From positions 1 through 57,570 of the forward strand of contig JAGQOU010000099.1 in the NCBI GenBank assembly GCA_020427145.1: 57,570 nt of DNA. The letters are read 5' to 3'. This DNA comes from Planctomycetales bacterium (GTDB lineage: Bacteria > Planctomycetota > Planctomycetia > Pirellulales > Lacipirellulaceae). A model generated the notes under the pieces. The model was not told the DNA's origin and did not search any database. It saw only the letters and a list, made by a program, of their open reading frames with translations. Shown here in pieces: positions 49,260 to 57,570 of the stretch (position 1 is the stretch's first letter; each line of letters opens with the position of its first letter). The translations under genes and the position numbers were made by a program.

Positions 49260-50381
49260 TTAGCTTTGCAGCACCATGGCGGGATCGATTCGGCGGACGC
49301 GGAGGAAGGGGGCCGCCGCGGCGGCCAGGCAGATCGCGGTGACCAGCACGCAACTGCCCGCCGCGATTTGCCAGGGAATGGCGATCGGCGCCCGCGGCGT
49401 GCTGAACAACTGTTGAAGCGCCGCCGCCGCGATGAGGCCGAGCGCGGAGCCGGCCGCGGCCAGCAGCAGCGCCTGGTTGAGAATGAGGCTGAGGATCTGA
49501 CGATCGCGGGCGCCGATCGCTTTGAGCGCGCCAAACTCGGCCAGCCGGTCGAGGACCGACGCGTAGAGCGTCTGCGCAACGATCACCAAGCCGACGAAGA
49601 GCCCCAGAACGGTCGCCGCGCCGAAACTGATGCCGATGCCCGTCCGCTGCAGCCAGTACGCGATGGAAATCTGAGCATACTGATCGCTGTCGTAGACTTC
49701 GGCGTCGGGTAGCCGCGCCTGAAGTCGACGGCGGACGGCTGCGGCGTCGGCTCCTGGGGCCAGTTTCACCAGGAAGTACGAGACCTGTCCGGAGGGGCGC
49801 GCGAGAAACTCGGTCGCGCGCTCCAGCGTGGTGAAGACGTACGGCGTCACCAGAAACCCCAGCACGCCTTCGGTAAACCCCGTCACCCGCGCGCGGCGGC
49901 CGCCGATTTCGCGGAGATCGCCAAGCGCCGGATTGTCGATCTTATGGGCGTCGAGCCGATCGACGACGATCGCATCGGGTTGCCGCAGCGCGTCGGGGTC
50001 CCATTGCAATTGAGCGGCCGAACCCATTTGGCTGGCTGGGTCGCTGCCGACCACGAGCACCTGTTCAAACCCGCCGCTGGGGAGCGTCATCACCGAATGG
50101 CCGACGAGATACGGTTCGGCCAGCGCGACGCCGGCGACGCTGCGAATGCGCTGTCCCCAACTCCGCGGAATGTCGTGCGGAAAATCGACGTTGTTCATCT
50201 GTTTGTGGCCCACCCAGATGTCGGCGTCCCCCTGGTTGACCAGCAGGCCGGCCTTGCGGATGAGCCCCACAAACAACCCGCCTTGCACGTTGACCAGCAC
50301 GATCGAAAAGACCACGCCGACCAGCGCCGTCAGGAGCTTGCCGCGCTGGGCGCTCAGCATCTTGACGGCGATATTCCACAC
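49260..50381 (-). CDS. ABC permease, FtsX/MacB/DevC-like
   Basis: A 373-residue permease. One helix near the N-terminus (LLTALVGVVFSIVLVNVQGG) is followed by a large periplasmic MacB-type domain (about 45-225) and three C-terminal helices, with LDRLAEFGALKAIGARDRQI between them as in DevC. The GTG at 50381 was chosen because GAGGA lies about eight bases upstream and WNIAVKML matches the family start; a TTG at 50417 is also in frame. It is the first gene of the minus-strand six-gene set. Confidence 0.85.
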   Translation of the reverse strand: MWNIAVKMLSAQRGKLLTALVGVVFSIVLVNVQGGLFVGLIRKAGLLVNQGDADIWVGHKQMNNVDFPHDIPRSWGQRIRSVAGVALAEPYLVGHSVMTLPSGGFEQVLVVGSDPASQMGSAAQLQWDPDALRQPDAIVVDRLDAHKIDNPALGDLREIGGRRARVTGFTEGVLGFLVTPYVFTTLERATEFLARPSGQVSYFLVKLAPGADAAAVRRRLQARLPDAEVYDSDQYAQISIAYWLQRTGIGISFGAATVLGLFVGLVIVAQTLYASVLDRLAEFGALKAIGARDRQILSLILNQALLLAAAGSALGLIAAAALQQLFSTPRAPIAIPWQIAAGSCVLVTAICLAAAAAPFLRVRRIDPAMVLQS

Positions 50382-50645
50382 AGGCGGAGTCCTCAGAACG
50401 CGCGGGCGACCATGCAAACCCTACCTCAGCCGCACCGGGTCGGAGCAGCGACGGCGGCGGTCGGCGTCAAACCGAGCCCCGGACAACCCCCCTGAGCCGC
50501 ACGACAGGCTGGCGACTGAATAGACGGACCCGCACCGGATCGGCTTTGTGGTAAATTGGCAGCACATCGACCTCGCCCCAGCGGCCTCAATAGCAGGGCC
50601 GGTCAATTCCTCCAATATCAATCCCGCTGCGACCCGAACTGCCGC

Positions 50646-52244
50646 GTGCCCGCCCCGCTCCTGGCCACTGACCTTCCCCCTTGCTGGCTTTCCTTTGCGG
50701 GGCCGGGCTGGGGGTGCGTGCTGGTATCGATCTTCCTGGCGACCTGGCTCGCAGCGCGGGGCCGCGGGTGCTGGTGGGCCGCGATCGCCGTCGCCGCCGT
50801 CGGCTTGGCGTCGGCCGGGCTTGCCGTCCGCTACGCAACCGAGGTGCAGGCGCCGCTTCTGGAACGTTGGGACCTGCGCGGGCCGTATGCGCCCTGGAAA
50901 AACTCGTGGCTGAAACCGCTGGAGGGAGCCGGCTACGGAGTTCACGACGACGTCGAATTCGGCCAGATCAGCTGCCGCGAGGACGCCGTCGTGGTGGGCA
51001 TTCCGATGGGCGTTTTCGTCAATCGGAATCAGTTCGCACTCAGTCTGGCGATGTCTCTGCCCGTGGCCGTCGCGCTGGCGTTGAGTTGGCCCCACGCCTG
51101 TCGCCGCCGGTGGTCCCGCATCGCCGCGTCAATTGCCGGCGGAGCGCTGGCCGGCGTCATCGCCACCGGGGGCCTGTTTCTCATTGGCGTTCCGGCGAAT
51201 TGTTGGGGCGCCTTGGGGGCGGTGTTGATCGCCGTGCCGACGACGTTCGCATTGGGCGTCCACAGTCGCCTCGCCACATGGTGCTGGAGCCTGGTGGCTG
51301 TCGGCATGCTGCTGGCGGCCAGCGGGAGCTTCTTCGTCTTGAGCCTGAGCAAAGACTTGATCCCTGCCGAGTCAAAACAACTCGTCGATGTTCAAAAAAG
51401 CCTCCAGGCAAGGATGGCGATCTGGGACATGGCGCTGGAAGCTTGGCGGCGGAACCCCCTCTTAGGCTGCGGTTGGGGAGAGTTTCAATACACGCAACCC
51501 GAGAGCGCAGAGAATACGTATCACTACGCTCACAACGAGTACGTTCATCTGGCGGCCGAGAGCGGCTTGGCGGGCGTGCTTGTCCTCGGCGCCCTGCTGG
51601 CCTGGGCGGGCGTCGTCGTCGTGCGGCGCTATCACGCGTCACGCCGCGGAGGGAGTCGCAACTTGTTGCTGGGAGTCGTCTGCGGGCTCTTGGCGTTGTT
51701 GCTGCATTCGGGGGTCGACTTTGCCGCGAGGGCTCCGCTCAACGGCGCGCTGGCCGCGATCCTCCTGGGGCTGGCGACGGGTATGGGGCGGCCGGCCTTG
51801 TCGCGCCGGCAGGTGGCAGCCGTCGTCATCGCTGCGGGTGCACTGGCTATCCTGGGGACCACTTGGCTGACGGGGGACTGGCAGCAGCGACTGCGCGTCC
51901 TGCGGGTCGAACAGGCCGTTTCCGCGGTCCGGCCCCGGTGGTTTCCGCCAAATCTGCCCGACTTGGCGCAGGCCGACGCGGAACGCCGTTGGCGATCGCG
52001 CGGGTCGCTGAGCGACGCCTTGGCCGCCGCCGAGCAGGATTGGCATGATGGGTTCGCGGACCGCGATGACGCCATGACCATGGCGACGGGGTACCTGCAG
52101 CTGTCGCGAGGGGAATCGCCGGACGAGTTGCAGCGCGCGCTGATTTGGCTGCAACGGGCCCAATCCCGTTATCCGCTTGACTCCACGGCGGCGACCATTG
52201 GGCAACTGACCGCGCCACCCGCCGCCGCGCCGCGCCTTCCCTAG
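50646..52244 (+). CDS. O-antigen ligase/Wzy-C-like membrane protein, possibly N-terminally shortened
   Basis: About 532 residues from the GTG at 50646, itself uncertain since a TTG at 50556 is also in frame. The ligase signature is FVNRNQFALSLAM, equivalent to the NxNHFA motif; a periplasmic-type loop containing AHNEYVHLAAESG follows, and this HNEY-like motif is typical of WaaL/Wzy_C proteins. About nine hydrophobic segments are seen, but only two precede the signature where the family usually has five or more, so the 5' part may have been lost. The C-terminal 110 residues are helical. It could attach glycan to a lipid or polymerise it. Confidence 0.72.
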   Translation: MPAPLLATDLPPCWLSFAGPGWGCVLVSIFLATWLAARGRGCWWAAIAVAAVGLASAGLAVRYATEVQAPLLERWDLRGPYAPWKNSWLKPLEGAGYGVHDDVEFGQISCREDAVVVGIPMGVFVNRNQFALSLAMSLPVAVALALSWPHACRRRWSRIAASIAGGALAGVIATGGLFLIGVPANCWGALGAVLIAVPTTFALGVHSRLATWCWSLVAVGMLLAASGSFFVLSLSKDLIPAESKQLVDVQKSLQARMAIWDMALEAWRRNPLLGCGWGEFQYTQPESAENTYHYAHNEYVHLAAESGLAGVLVLGALLAWAGVVVVRRYHASRRGGSRNLLLGVVCGLLALLLHSGVDFAARAPLNGALAAILLGLATGMGRPALSRRQVAAVVIAAGALAILGTTWLTGDWQQRLRVLRVEQAVSAVRPRWFPPNLPDLAQADAERRWRSRGSLSDALAAAEQDWHDGFADRDDAMTMATGYLQLSRGESPDELQRALIWLQRAQSRYPLDSTAATIGQLTAPPAAAPRLP

Positions 52245-53059: not shown

Positions 53060-54931
53060 ATGAAATCATATCTTGCAACTGCCCTACTGCTTACCGCCTT
53101 GCTTTCCGTCGCGGCTCGTGGCGGCGAACACGTCTACGCCTGCGACTCCGTGGACGCGATCGAAGCGGCGCTTGCCGCGATCAACAAGGCGGGCGTGGGC
53201 GGCAGTATCGGCATTATGCCGGGGACTTACCGCCTCAAGAGTCCTTACCGTAAGTCGCTCGAGAAGTCCGGCAAGGGAGACTGGAACGGCGCGTCAAAAA
53301 CCTACGCGCTCTACGTGTCTAGTCCCAACGTGACAATCTACTCCGTGGTTCCCGGCGCCGCTCGGTTGCTGGGCGAGAAGGACGCCATCGTCAACACCAG
53401 CGCCACGGGAGAGTTTACCGCGTTTCGCGGCGGCATGATCTACCTCGATCGCACGGCCGCGAACGCCACGATCAGGGGCCTCGATCTCGACGGCGGCGTG
53501 AAGCCGAGACCCAAATTCAATAAGAACGTCTACAACAACGCCGAGAACAAAGGCGTCGACTGCTGGGACTGGGGACACAAAGCGATCAATTCGATCTCGC
53601 CCAACGCCCGCATCCTCGATTGCCAGATCCACAACTGGGCCGGCGAGATGGTCTACGGGGGGCAGGACGGGACGCCATGCCGGCTGGAAATTCGCGGCTG
53701 CCGCCTCTACGACAATCAGGTCTCGGCCATGTCGGGCGATTGGCAACTCAACTGTCACAACAACGAGTTCTTCCGACTCGACGGCCAGTGCATGGAGGGC
53801 CTGCACAACTGGACGTGCAGCTACCGCGACAACTATTTCCACGACTGCAAGGGGGGCGGGCTCAATATCATGGGACCTGTGACCAAACTCGCGCCGAAGA
53901 ACGGCTGGTGGATCGAGGTTCGCGACAACATTTTTGAGCGGATGGCGTCCGACCAGTTCGGTTGCGTCTACCTGTCGAGGCAGACGACGCCCGACGTATC
54001 AAATCCGAGCAGAATCGGCATCGTCGGCAATACGTTTCGCGACTGCCGGACGGCGCTCTCCGTGTCGCTGGGCGTGGCCGAAGAAGTCTACTTTGCAGAC
54101 AATCTTATCCTGGTCGACCAGATACTTACGGCAGACGGCATCGCCAGCAAGAGCGGTCACTTTTTCAATTCGATGTTCTGCGACAACACGTTCATGCTGA
54201 CGCAGAACGCCGCTGACCGCAACGCACGGCTCAACGCGGGGGCGCTCAACACCGGCCTTCACGGCGGGGCGAGATTCGTCGGCAATCTGTACGAGCGCTG
54301 CCGCCCTCCCGCTGATATGGAATTCTCCAATGGCGAAACGCCGCAACTCTGCTTTGTCAACGAGACGTACAAAGACCTGGAGTTTCAGCGCGACGTCTAT
54401 TTGAAATACGCCACGAACAACCCCGGCAACACGCCTTTGCCGACGAACAATTACGACGGACCGATTAGCGTGGGCGTGCTGTCGGTACAATTCCAAACGC
54501 CGTGGTATCTCCGCATGGCCACGACTGCCAGCGGCGGCAAGCCGCTGTTCCCGGACGGCACGGAGCTGCGACTCACCGGCAACCCGGAAACAAGCGTCAA
54601 GACGGTGGCCTACTTGTGCAATGGGCGCGGCTGTCAGTTGCAGGACGACTTCCCCGTGTTTCTCGGCTCGTTCAACGACTACGTCCTGCTGCGGTACAGC
54701 GCCGCCGAGAAGATTTGGCTGGAAGTCGAGCGGTCGACGCCGACGGCCAACCGCCTGCTGAAACTGTCGCATCGCGGCAAGGCGGCGGACGCTCCGTTGT
54801 TCGGCGAACTGGCTCCGCTGGTCGTGGAGGGCGTGAACGTTCTGAACGAAGCCGTGGCCGGCTGGCCGTACTACGAGACGGACACCGGCGCGTGGAAGTA
54901 CTACACGGGCTCGGCTTGGAACGCCAAGTAG
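53060..54931 (+). CDS. Secreted right-handed beta-helix protein
   Basis: A 623-residue exported protein. MKSYLATALLLTALLSVAARG is a signal peptide, and GGAG lies before the ATG. The body shows repeated short strands typical of a right-handed parallel beta-helix (Beta_helix/pectate-lyase type): ATIRGLDLDGG, ARILDCQIHNW, LEIRGCRLYDNQ, SYRDNYFHDCKG and IGIVGNTFRDCRT, about residues 130-400. Such folds are found in polysaccharide lyases, epimerases and surface adhesins; no catalytic set could be assigned. The last 60 residues end YYETDTGAWKYYTGSAWN, resembling tail-fibre-like repeats. Proximity to glycan genes suggests it acts on or binds the polysaccharide. Confidence 0.75.
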   Translation: MKSYLATALLLTALLSVAARGGEHVYACDSVDAIEAALAAINKAGVGGSIGIMPGTYRLKSPYRKSLEKSGKGDWNGASKTYALYVSSPNVTIYSVVPGAARLLGEKDAIVNTSATGEFTAFRGGMIYLDRTAANATIRGLDLDGGVKPRPKFNKNVYNNAENKGVDCWDWGHKAINSISPNARILDCQIHNWAGEMVYGGQDGTPCRLEIRGCRLYDNQVSAMSGDWQLNCHNNEFFRLDGQCMEGLHNWTCSYRDNYFHDCKGGGLNIMGPVTKLAPKNGWWIEVRDNIFERMASDQFGCVYLSRQTTPDVSNPSRIGIVGNTFRDCRTALSVSLGVAEEVYFADNLILVDQILTADGIASKSGHFFNSMFCDNTFMLTQNAADRNARLNAGALNTGLHGGARFVGNLYERCRPPADMEFSNGETPQLCFVNETYKDLEFQRDVYLKYATNNPGNTPLPTNNYDGPISVGVLSVQFQTPWYLRMATTASGGKPLFPDGTELRLTGNPETSVKTVAYLCNGRGCQLQDDFPVFLGSFNDYVLLRYSAAEKIWLEVERSTPTANRLLKLSHRGKAADAPLFGELAPLVVEGVNVLNEAVAGWPYYETDTGAWKYYTGSAWNAK

Positions 54932-55117: not shown

Positions 55118-55303
55118 TCCGGCGAGTTGTCGCGGGGCGAGTCGACGGCTGATCTGGAGCAGGCGCTGGCGTGGCTCGAACAGGCGCAAACACGGTTCGC
55201 GCTCGATTCGACCGAGCAGACGATCGGGCAGCTGCGCGATCGTCTGCGCAGCGCAGAACACGATGCGAAACGACAACAAGGCGAGCGGCAATCCGCCGAG
55301 TGA
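55118..55303 (+). pseudogene. Remnant duplicating the ligase C-terminus
   Basis: The open frame across this stretch encodes LSRGESTADLEQALAWLEQA and LDSTEQTIGQL. It aligns with the C-terminal end of the ligase-like protein (LSRGESPDELQRALIWLQRA, LDSTAATIGQL, nucleotides 52101-52208); by hand count 23 of 38 positions are identical. The rest of a ligase gene is absent upstream (54932-55117 shows no homologous sequence), so this is a fragment of a second copy or of a rearranged gene. It ends 58 bp before the peptidase gene. Confidence 0.6.
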
Positions 55304-55361: not shown

Positions 55362-57570
55362 ATGAGACTGCTCAGGTGGATTCCGCAACTGCTCTGTCTC
55401 ACGCTGTGGCTCGCGCCCGGCGCGGTCCGCGGGCAAGGGTCGCTGGCCGACTATCAACAGGCCGATTCGTTCGGCGCCCGCTTCCGCGACAAGGTCCTGG
55501 GGCAGCGGGTCCAGACGCACTGGATTGACGACGGCCAATCGCTGTGGATGCGCGTCCCGACTGGGCCGGGGACTCACCGCTATAAACTCGTGACCGCCGC
55601 CAACGGCCGGGAGCGGGATTTGTTCGACCACGATCGCCTGGCGGCCGCGCTCGCGGCAGCCGGCGGCGACGATTTCGACGCCGCACGGCTGCCGTTGCAG
55701 GGCCTGCAATACCTGGGAGACAACCAACTCAGCTTCCGGGCGGGCGGCACGACGTGGTCCTGCGATTTGGAGAGCTACGTCCTGAGCGCGGCGGACCCGG
55801 CCGCTGCGTCCCCCGCGACGACGGTCGTCGTGCTGGGACGCGCGCGGCCCAGTCGCGACACGGGCGACGAGACGAACATCACGTTCGTCAATCAAACCCC
55901 GGCGGAGATCGAGTTGGCCTGGATCGACGCCAACGGGCGGCGCCACCCCTACGGCGCCGTCCCGGCGGGCGGAGAGCGTCGCCAACACACCTACGCCGGG
56001 CACGTCTGGATCGCCCTGAACGGCGCCGGCGAAACGCTGGGGGCCTATCGGGCGACGGATTCGCCGGGGGCGGCGGTGGTGGACGGCAGCTGGCGACCGC
56101 GTCGCGCCGATCGCCGAGGCGCCGCCGAGCGGCGCGGCGATCTGTCCCCCGACGGCCAGTGGCGCGTCGAGATCGTGGACGCCAACGTCGTGCTGCATTC
56201 CACGCGCGGAGCGGAGAGCATTGCCCTGAGCGCCGACGGTGCGTCAGACGACCCCTATCTGCCGCGATGCTATTGGTCGCCCGACTCGGCGCGGTTGGTC
56301 GTGCTGCGCGAACGACCCGTCGCGCGCCGTCAGGTCCAGTTCGTCGAGTCGTCGCCCCCGGATCAGTTGCAACCGAAACTCCATGCGATCGACTATCCCA
56401 AACCGGGCGACGAGTTGCCTCGAACCCGCGTCTCCCTGTTCGACGTCGCGAACCGCCGACCGATCGCCGTCGACCATGCGCTCTTCGACAATCCGTGGAG
56501 TCTCAGCGACTTCGCCTGGCGGTCCGACTCCTCCGAATTCACTTTTCTCTACAACCAGCGGGGCCACCAGACGCTGCGGTTGGTGGGCGTCAACGCGACG
56601 ACGGGCCAGGCGCGCGCCCTGATCGACGAAACCAGCGAGACCTTCGTCTGCTACTCCAGCAAGAGCTTCCTGCACCGGCTCGCGGGCGGCACGCGGGCGA
56701 TTTGGATGTCAGAACGCGACGGGTGGTGTCACCTCTATTTGTACGACCTCGTCGCTGGCCGCGTCATCAATCAGATCACCCGCGGCGAGTGGGTCGTCCG
56801 CGGCGTCGAGCGCGTGGACGAAGAGCGGAATCAAGTTTGGTTGACCGCCGGAGGCGTTGATCCGAAGCAGGACCCGTACCACGTCCACTACTGTCGCGTC
56901 AATCTGGACGGCAGCGGGTTCGTCAGGCTGACGGAGGGCGACGGCACGCACGCCATCGCGTACGCCCCCAACCGCGAGTATTTCATCGACGTCTACTCGC
57001 GGGTCGATCTGCCCCCGGTGACCGAACTGCGGCGGTCGTCCGACGGGGCGCTGGTCGCCACGCTTTACCAGGCGGATTGGTCGCCCCTGCTGGCGGCCGG
57101 CTGGCAGCCGCCGATCCGGTTCAGCTGCCCGGGCCGCGACGGTCAGACCGAGATCTACGGGGTGATCTACCGTCCCAGTCGCTTCGACCCCCGGCGAAAG
57201 TATCCGATCGTCGAGTCGATCTATGCCGGCCCGCACGCGGCGCACGTCCCCAAAAGTTTCGCCACGGCGCATCGCGGGCAGGAACTGGCCGAACTGGGCT
57301 TCGTGGTCGTGCAGATCGACGGCATGGGGACGTCGCACCGCAGCAAGGCGTTTCACGACGTCTGCTGGCGCAACCTCGCCGACGCGGGGTTCCCCGACCG
57401 CGTCCTGTGGATCCAGGCCGCCGCGGACCAGTACCCCTGGATGGACGCCGCGCGGGTCGGCGTCTACGGCGGCTCGGCCGGGGGACAGAACGCCCTGCGG
57501 GCCCTCATCGATCACGGCGATTTCTACGCCGCCGCGGCGGCGGATTGCGGCTGCCACGACAACCGGATGG
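55362..57570 (+). CDS. Secreted DPP-IV-like S9 serine peptidase with VHL-like beta domain (3' end outside window)
   Basis: At least 736 residues, continuing past the window edge. A signal peptide (WIPQLLCLTLWLAPGAVRG) directs it outside the cytoplasm. The N-terminal part forms a DPP-IV beta-propeller. Residues about 172-220 carry a segment resembling the human von Hippel-Lindau beta domain: FVNQTPAEIELAWIDANG then HTYAGHVW. The positions equivalent to VHL Trp88, Tyr98, Ser111, His115 and Trp117 fall at Trp187, Tyr197, Thr210, His214 and Trp216 with identical spacing. The catalytic serine is Ser705 in YGGSAGGQ; the Asp and His should lie outside the window. S9B enzymes release dipeptides after proline. 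I recall bacterial VHL-like domains in this context but could not check. Confidence 0.88.
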   Translation, partial: MRLLRWIPQLLCLTLWLAPGAVRGQGSLADYQQADSFGARFRDKVLGQRVQTHWIDDGQSLWMRVPTGPGTHRYKLVTAANGRERDLFDHDRLAAALAAAGGDDFDAARLPLQGLQYLGDNQLSFRAGGTTWSCDLESYVLSAADPAAASPATTVVVLGRARPSRDTGDETNITFVNQTPAEIELAWIDANGRRHPYGAVPAGGERRQHTYAGHVWIALNGAGETLGAYRATDSPGAAVVDGSWRPRRADRRGAAERRGDLSPDGQWRVEIVDANVVLHSTRGAESIALSADGASDDPYLPRCYWSPDSARLVVLRERPVARRQVQFVESSPPDQLQPKLHAIDYPKPGDELPRTRVSLFDVANRRPIAVDHALFDNPWSLSDFAWRSDSSEFTFLYNQRGHQTLRLVGVNATTGQARALIDETSETFVCYSSKSFLHRLAGGTRAIWMSERDGWCHLYLYDLVAGRVINQITRGEWVVRGVERVDEERNQVWLTAGGVDPKQDPYHVHYCRVNLDGSGFVRLTEGDGTHAIAYAPNREYFIDVYSRVDLPPVTELRRSSDGALVATLYQADWSPLLAAGWQPPIRFSCPGRDGQTEIYGVIYRPSRFDPRRKYPIVESIYAGPHAAHVPKSFATAHRGQELAELGFVVVQIDGMGTSHRSKAFHDVCWRNLADAGFPDRVLWIQAAADQYPWMDAARVGVYGGSAGGQNALRALIDHGDFYAAAAADCGCHDNRM

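Follow-up and report, generated by a model that had tools for sequence, protein, structure and literature searches.

A VHL beta domain with a conserved hydroxyproline-type pocket in a secreted S9-fold peptidase of Planctomycetota

The results of this analysis demonstrated that a VHL beta domain is inserted in a secreted S9-fold peptidase, whose gene lies at the end of the window (the whole stretch of DNA analysed, which is one entire contig of 57,570 bases from a genome that is 72% complete). We consider it fairly probable that this insert has preserved the hydroxyproline (Hyp) pocket known from pVHL and serves the secreted peptidase as a module for docking Hyp-rich substrate proteins. Pocket conservation among relatives and the linkage of VHL-bearing genes to Hyp catabolic genes in six planctomycete genomes support this reading.

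A VHL beta domain within a secreted S9-fold peptidase

The open reading frame at 55362-57569 on the plus strand encodes 736 readable amino acids; the gene is open at the contig end, so that the peptidase domain lacks its final part. The ATG at 55362 was a better-fitting start than the in-frame ATG at 55263. The features of the gene are as follows.

55362..57569, plus strand: gene of the secreted S9-fold peptidase that carries the VHL beta domain as an insert; the 3' portion lies beyond the contig end
55362..55436, plus strand: signal-peptide-like N-terminus MRLLRWIPQLLCLTLWLAPGAVRGQ, first 25 residues, judged by eye from the sequence
55437..55835, plus strand: N-terminal region ahead of the VHL insert, probably the first propeller blade, judged from the AlphaFold2 strand pattern of the full-length relative L040
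55839..56090, plus strand: VHL beta domain, residues 160-243 (Pfam match at 170-217; AlphaFold2 and PDB matches over pVHL 62-154)
55920..56009, plus strand: whole span of the Hyp-pocket residues (human pVHL alignment; conservation ranks)
55920-55922, 55950-55952 and 55986-55988, plus strand: codons of the pocket residues Trp187, Tyr197 and His209
55989-55991, 56001-56003 and 56007-56009, plus strand: codons of the pocket residues Thr210, His214 and Trp216
56268..57017, plus strand: DPPIV_N beta-propeller region, residues 303-552 (Pfam); DPP4 Glu-Glu motif absent
57270..57569, plus strand: Peptidase_S9 domain, residues 637-736, incomplete at the contig end (Pfam)
57474-57476, plus strand: catalytic Ser705 within GGSAGG, inside Peptidase_S9
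57546-57566, plus strand: subfamily motif CGCHDNR, inside Peptidase_S9

Upstream of the peptidase gene, the window encodes a right-handed beta-helix protein (53060-54931), an O-antigen-ligase-like membrane protein (50556-52244) and a MacB/FtsX permease (49260-50417), and a functional tie of these neighbours to the peptidase was not obvious.

The sequence-only reading had placed a VHL-like domain around residues 172-220 and had proposed a profile search and a superposition on pVHL as checks. The Pfam VHL profile (PF01847) matched residues 170-217 with 32.4 bits against a curated cut-off of 21, and when the VHL region was searched with phmmer against all PDB sequences, pVHL was the sole significant match (E ~2e-7). 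An AlphaFold2 model of residues 160-253 showed a seven-strand sandwich with a core pLDDT of 93-97, and the best 50 of the 75 Foldseek matches in the PDB (E ≤ 0.001) were all pVHL. VIA-align superposed 83 residues on pVHL 62-154, that is, on the whole beta domain, at 1.5-1.6 Å with Z values of 12.4-12.6; the identity to pVHL was ca. 24%. Residues 160-243 thus constitute a complete VHL beta domain, and the match is far above chance. The predicted location was confirmed by the profile, the PDB sequence search and the modelled VHL sandwich; the predicted extent was too short, with the domain reaching approximately residue 243. In the Pfam profile search, the peptidase-borne domain was the single VHL match of the source genome, and none of 14 control genomes contained PF01847.

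The beta domain of human and metazoan pVHL superposes entirely with the window domain; unlike pVHL, the window protein has no alpha domain with an Elongin C (BC) box, other VHL-related Pfam matches at E ≤ 1 being absent, and its VHL domain forms part of a secreted hydrolase, in which an Arg-rich linker and the propeller come next. A VHL-domain protein of Litorilituus sediminis (PMC9002001) is likewise bacterial and exported and has the VHL beta domain; the passages of that paper considered here discuss tumour suppression and contain no comparison of the Hyp pocket, no enzyme partner and no operon link.

Besides VHL, Pfam assigned DPPIV_N (303-552) and Peptidase_S9 (637-736) to the window protein. 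The sequence-only reading had described the host protein as proline-specific and DPP-IV-like, and this part was upheld for the fold only. As in S9B DPP-IV and prolyl tripeptidyl peptidase (2ecf, 5yp1, 5olj, 2d5l), the proteins combine a propeller with an alpha/beta hydrolase, a catalytic triad and an oxyanion Tyr, and L040 matched DPP-IV structures with Z up to 29.1. When aligned with the bacterial enzymes DPP-IV and prolyl tripeptidyl peptidase, the relatives were seen to retain the catalytic Ser, Asp and His together with Tyr547; the Asp and His are past the contig end in the window and were present in 48/48 readable relatives. Unlike the S9B enzymes, the S9 subfamily of the window protein (VHL-S9 where it bears VHL) has lost both the Glu-Glu motif and the S1 proline pocket. 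The Glu-Glu motif of DPP4 (DW(V/Y)YEEE) holds the substrate N-terminus; the window protein has a gap in its place, as have 48 of 51 relatives. Tyr631, Trp659, Tyr662 and Tyr666 (human numbering), the S1 proline-pocket positions of DPP4, have given way to Ala, Asn, Asp and Trp in all readable relatives, and the window protein shows Tyr631 to Ala and Trp659 to Asn. Since the Glu-Glu motif and the S1 residues are lost, a proline-specific DPP-IV is not supported; judged by its specificity residues, this S9/DPPIV-fold peptidase is no DPP-IV, and an exopeptidase of that type with VHL as a mere add-on is very improbable despite the shared domains and catalytic residues. The subfamily is further distinguished by a conserved CGCHDNR(M)DK motif and by the VHL insertion near the N-terminus. 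At least 10 full-length S9 relatives with the same motif have no VHL at that position, and the S9 fold is intact in them. VHL is, thus, a removable module in this subfamily.

Conservation of the hydroxyproline pocket

In pVHL, the Hyp hydroxyl is bonded to Ser111 and His115 (PMC9528729). The sequence-only reading had listed five counterparts of the human pocket at identical spacing with only Ser changed to Thr, and the gap-free alignment agreed in full: human Trp88, Tyr98, Ser111, His115 and Trp117 correspond to Trp187, Tyr197, Thr210, His214 and Trp216. Human His110 additionally pairs with His209, so that five residues (Trp88, Tyr98, His110, His115 and Trp117) are identical and Ser111 is conservatively Thr. 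Both hydroxyl partners of Hyp are retained in the window domain, as Thr and His. Two residues of the adjoining ligand surface in pVHL, Phe91 and Pro99, are not retained.

The closest relatives of the window gene in the VHL-domain search were nearly all from metagenome-assembled genomes of Planctomycetota. VHL domains occurred in 56/392 sampled genomes of the phylum and 119/372 of the class; an actinobacterial match (L053) looked like chance. Ranked by relative entropy among 52 columns, the five of the pocket took places 1, 3, 4, 5 and 7 in a set of 78 S9-borne domains, and the chance that all five fall in the top seven was 8e-6, to be read with the fact that homology-based domain detection favours conserved residues. 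The combination WYTHW was found in 73/78 of these domains, His in 77/78 and Thr/Ser in all 78, counts which are not phylogenetically independent and come from loci gathered partly with a pattern containing RQHTYAGH that favours the motif, the Pfam-gathered loci being less biased. His was also kept in the copies on M90-like metallopeptidases (10/10), giving 87/88 for all peptidase-borne copies, while only 4/33 of the copies that are borne by sulfatases, esterases or LRR proteins, or that lie C-terminally on an S9 protein, had it. Most sulfatase, esterase and LRR copies had Ala or Asn in place of His115. In the tree of VHL domains, which is short and weakly supported and in which human pVHL was not placed, the clades were associated with partner proteins and His was lost in about two of them. 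A small second sulfatase clade retained His and lost Tyr98 and Trp117.

A strict pairing of His115 with peptidases was softened by several exceptions: an S9 protein with a C-terminal VHL (L105) has Ala, one internal S9 copy has Asn, a decayed S9 copy (L157) is without the pocket, and the sulfatase clade mentioned above retains His.

The domain might instead have no ligand and merely stabilise the propeller or a dimer, its Trp, Tyr and Trp being conserved as core. The conserved Asn78 and Gly positions of VHL domains are probably structural, which would fit such a role, as would an S9 fold that is intact without the domain. However, VHL is not needed for folding since it is absent from at least 10 full-length members, pure core packing does not predict that His115 tracks the partner protein, and the linkage to Hyp operons occurs with three unrelated partner enzymes. 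We regard a ligand-free role as distinctly unlikely.

On S9 peptidases, the VHL domain lies near the N-terminus. The other partners were M90-like metallopeptidases, sulfatases, sialate-esterase-like enzymes, LRR proteins and carbohydrate-binding multidomain proteins, on which VHL was mostly C-terminal. Two ORFs (L042:5428-9639, 1404 aa; L217:4667-8824, 1386 aa) fuse VHL-S9 with an M90-like peptidase and unite both VHL-bearing peptidase types, and a 1574-aa ORF (L055:4386-9107) is a VHL-S9 peptidase fused with a DUF885 domain. A C-terminal VHL also occurs on long proteins that contain F5/8 type C and NPCBM domains (L161:47-3478, L161:3627-7061 and L162:2-2629), and in one of these copies the pocket is exactly that of human pVHL (Trp, Tyr-Pro, Ser-Tyr, His, Trp).

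This range of partners bears on whether VHL is a carbohydrate-binding module whose aromatic pocket (Trp/Tyr/Trp) accommodates a sugar from glycoproteins or from sulfated glycans, with the Hyp operons reflecting Hyp-rich glycoproteins as food. Its presence on sulfatases, sialate-esterase-like enzymes and F5/8 type C plus NPCBM proteins fits such a function, and Ala or Asn for His115 in most sulfatase, esterase and LRR copies would widen the pocket. On the other hand, His (87/88) and Thr/Ser, the counterparts of the residues that bind the Hyp hydroxyl in pVHL, are near-invariant in the peptidase-borne copies, and no VHL domain is known to bind sugar. Sugar binding thus appears rather unlikely.

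Linkage to hydroxyproline catabolic genes in relatives

The trans-4-Hyp pathway comprises 4-hydroxyproline epimerase (4HypE), cHyp oxidase, Pyr4H2C deaminase and KGSA dehydrogenase (PMC4113996). In six planctomycete genomes, genes of the Pro_racemase family together with DAO-like and DHDPS-like genes lay within 5 kb of a VHL-bearing gene. These loci contain the same enzyme superfamilies as the known cluster, with an aldehyde dehydrogenase (Aldedh) in L208; unlike the known cluster, they add a VHL-bearing secreted peptidase or sulfatase. At L208, VHL-S9 comes first, and the genes for epimerase, DAO, another FAD enzyme, DHDPS and Aldedh follow in the same direction; at L209, the order is DHDPS, 4HypE and DAO, with VHL-S9 at the cluster end. 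L164 has a GntR regulator, DHDPS, 4HypE, DAO, an IS110 transposase and then an M90-like peptidase with VHL. In L210, L211 and L226, DHDPS, 4HypE and DAO are directly followed by a sulfatase with VHL, and the VHL domains of these sulfatases show Ala at the His115 position and, in one case, also Met at that of Tyr98. The four epimerases scored gave 421-451 bits against 4-hydroxyproline epimerase models and 196-214 against proline racemase; one of the four was above the model cut-off of 450, and the others were just below it.

Six such loci were observed while ca. 0.2 were expected by chance from genome size (Poisson 1.3e-7, shared ancestry ignored). Among them, four or more distinct gene orders and three unrelated partner enzymes occur, the VHL domain being common to the partners, and the VHL-S9 proteins of L208 and L209 belong to separate S9 clades of the domain tree. 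The element at L164:8149-9330, between the Hyp catabolic genes and the M90-like VHL gene, is an IS110-family transposase. At L172:4564-7228, a distant Pro_racemase-family gene lies immediately ahead of a sulfatase without VHL.

The window locus itself has no Hyp pathway genes, and its VHL gene sits at the contig end; neither the Pro_racemase family (PF05544) nor prolyl hydroxylase (PF13640) was found in the window's genome, which is 72% complete.

Strong PF05544 matches showed two associations across the 392 genomes of the phylum sample: one was with the S9 subfamily, at OR 8.9 (p 2e-12) and with a permutation p of 0.0018 within families; the other was with VHL, at OR 3.4 (p 1.4e-4), and was marginal within families (p 0.054). 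In the class sample, PF05544 was present in 99/119 VHL genomes and 139/253 others (OR 4.1, p 4e-8; hand counts). Since genomes with the S9 subfamily and no VHL match had PF05544 as often or more (12/15), the peptidase accounts for some of this signal, and the co-occurrence may reside in the peptidase lineage and not in the VHL module. The earlier suggestion that the domain steers the peptidase to Hyp gained independent support from the Hyp catabolic operons of relatives and from this co-occurrence with the 4-hydroxyproline epimerase family.

Proposed role of the VHL module

Based on these results, the domain probably binds Hyp and docks substrates, and it may act likewise in the window's own organism, as judged from homology only. 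The VHL domain would grip Hyp-bearing stretches of extracellular proteins, such as collagen-like proteins or algal and plant wall glycoproteins, and the docked substrate would be cleaved by the S9 peptidase. In relatives, the freed trans-4-hydroxyproline would enter the pathway of epimerase, D-amino-acid oxidase and DHDPS-family deaminase. The ligand of sulfatase-borne copies may differ: since the copies in Hyp operons have Ala for His115, a substituted Hyp or another use of the pocket may apply.

A broader view, which we offer tentatively as a possibility, is that bacterial VHL is a plug-in nutrient-capture module for Hyp-rich proteins, swapped among secreted peptidases and sulfatases in Hyp operons. 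Copies of the sulfatase and esterase type with Ala for His115 would then read O-substituted Hyp (sulfated or glycosylated), and the Hyp reader, whose pocket eukaryotic pVHL shares, would be older or broader than oxygen sensing. Our search of the open-access literature found no report that describes VHL modules on enzymes of planctomycetes or connects VHL with Hyp catabolism.

Animal oxygen sensing centres on Hyp recognition by pVHL, and so do many PROTAC drugs. A bacterial module with the pVHL pocket and an operon link to Hyp use makes the obscure origin of this pocket directly testable. The small domain could possibly serve as a Hyp-binding reagent, and it would offer a first handle on how planctomycetes attack Hyp-rich matrix proteins.
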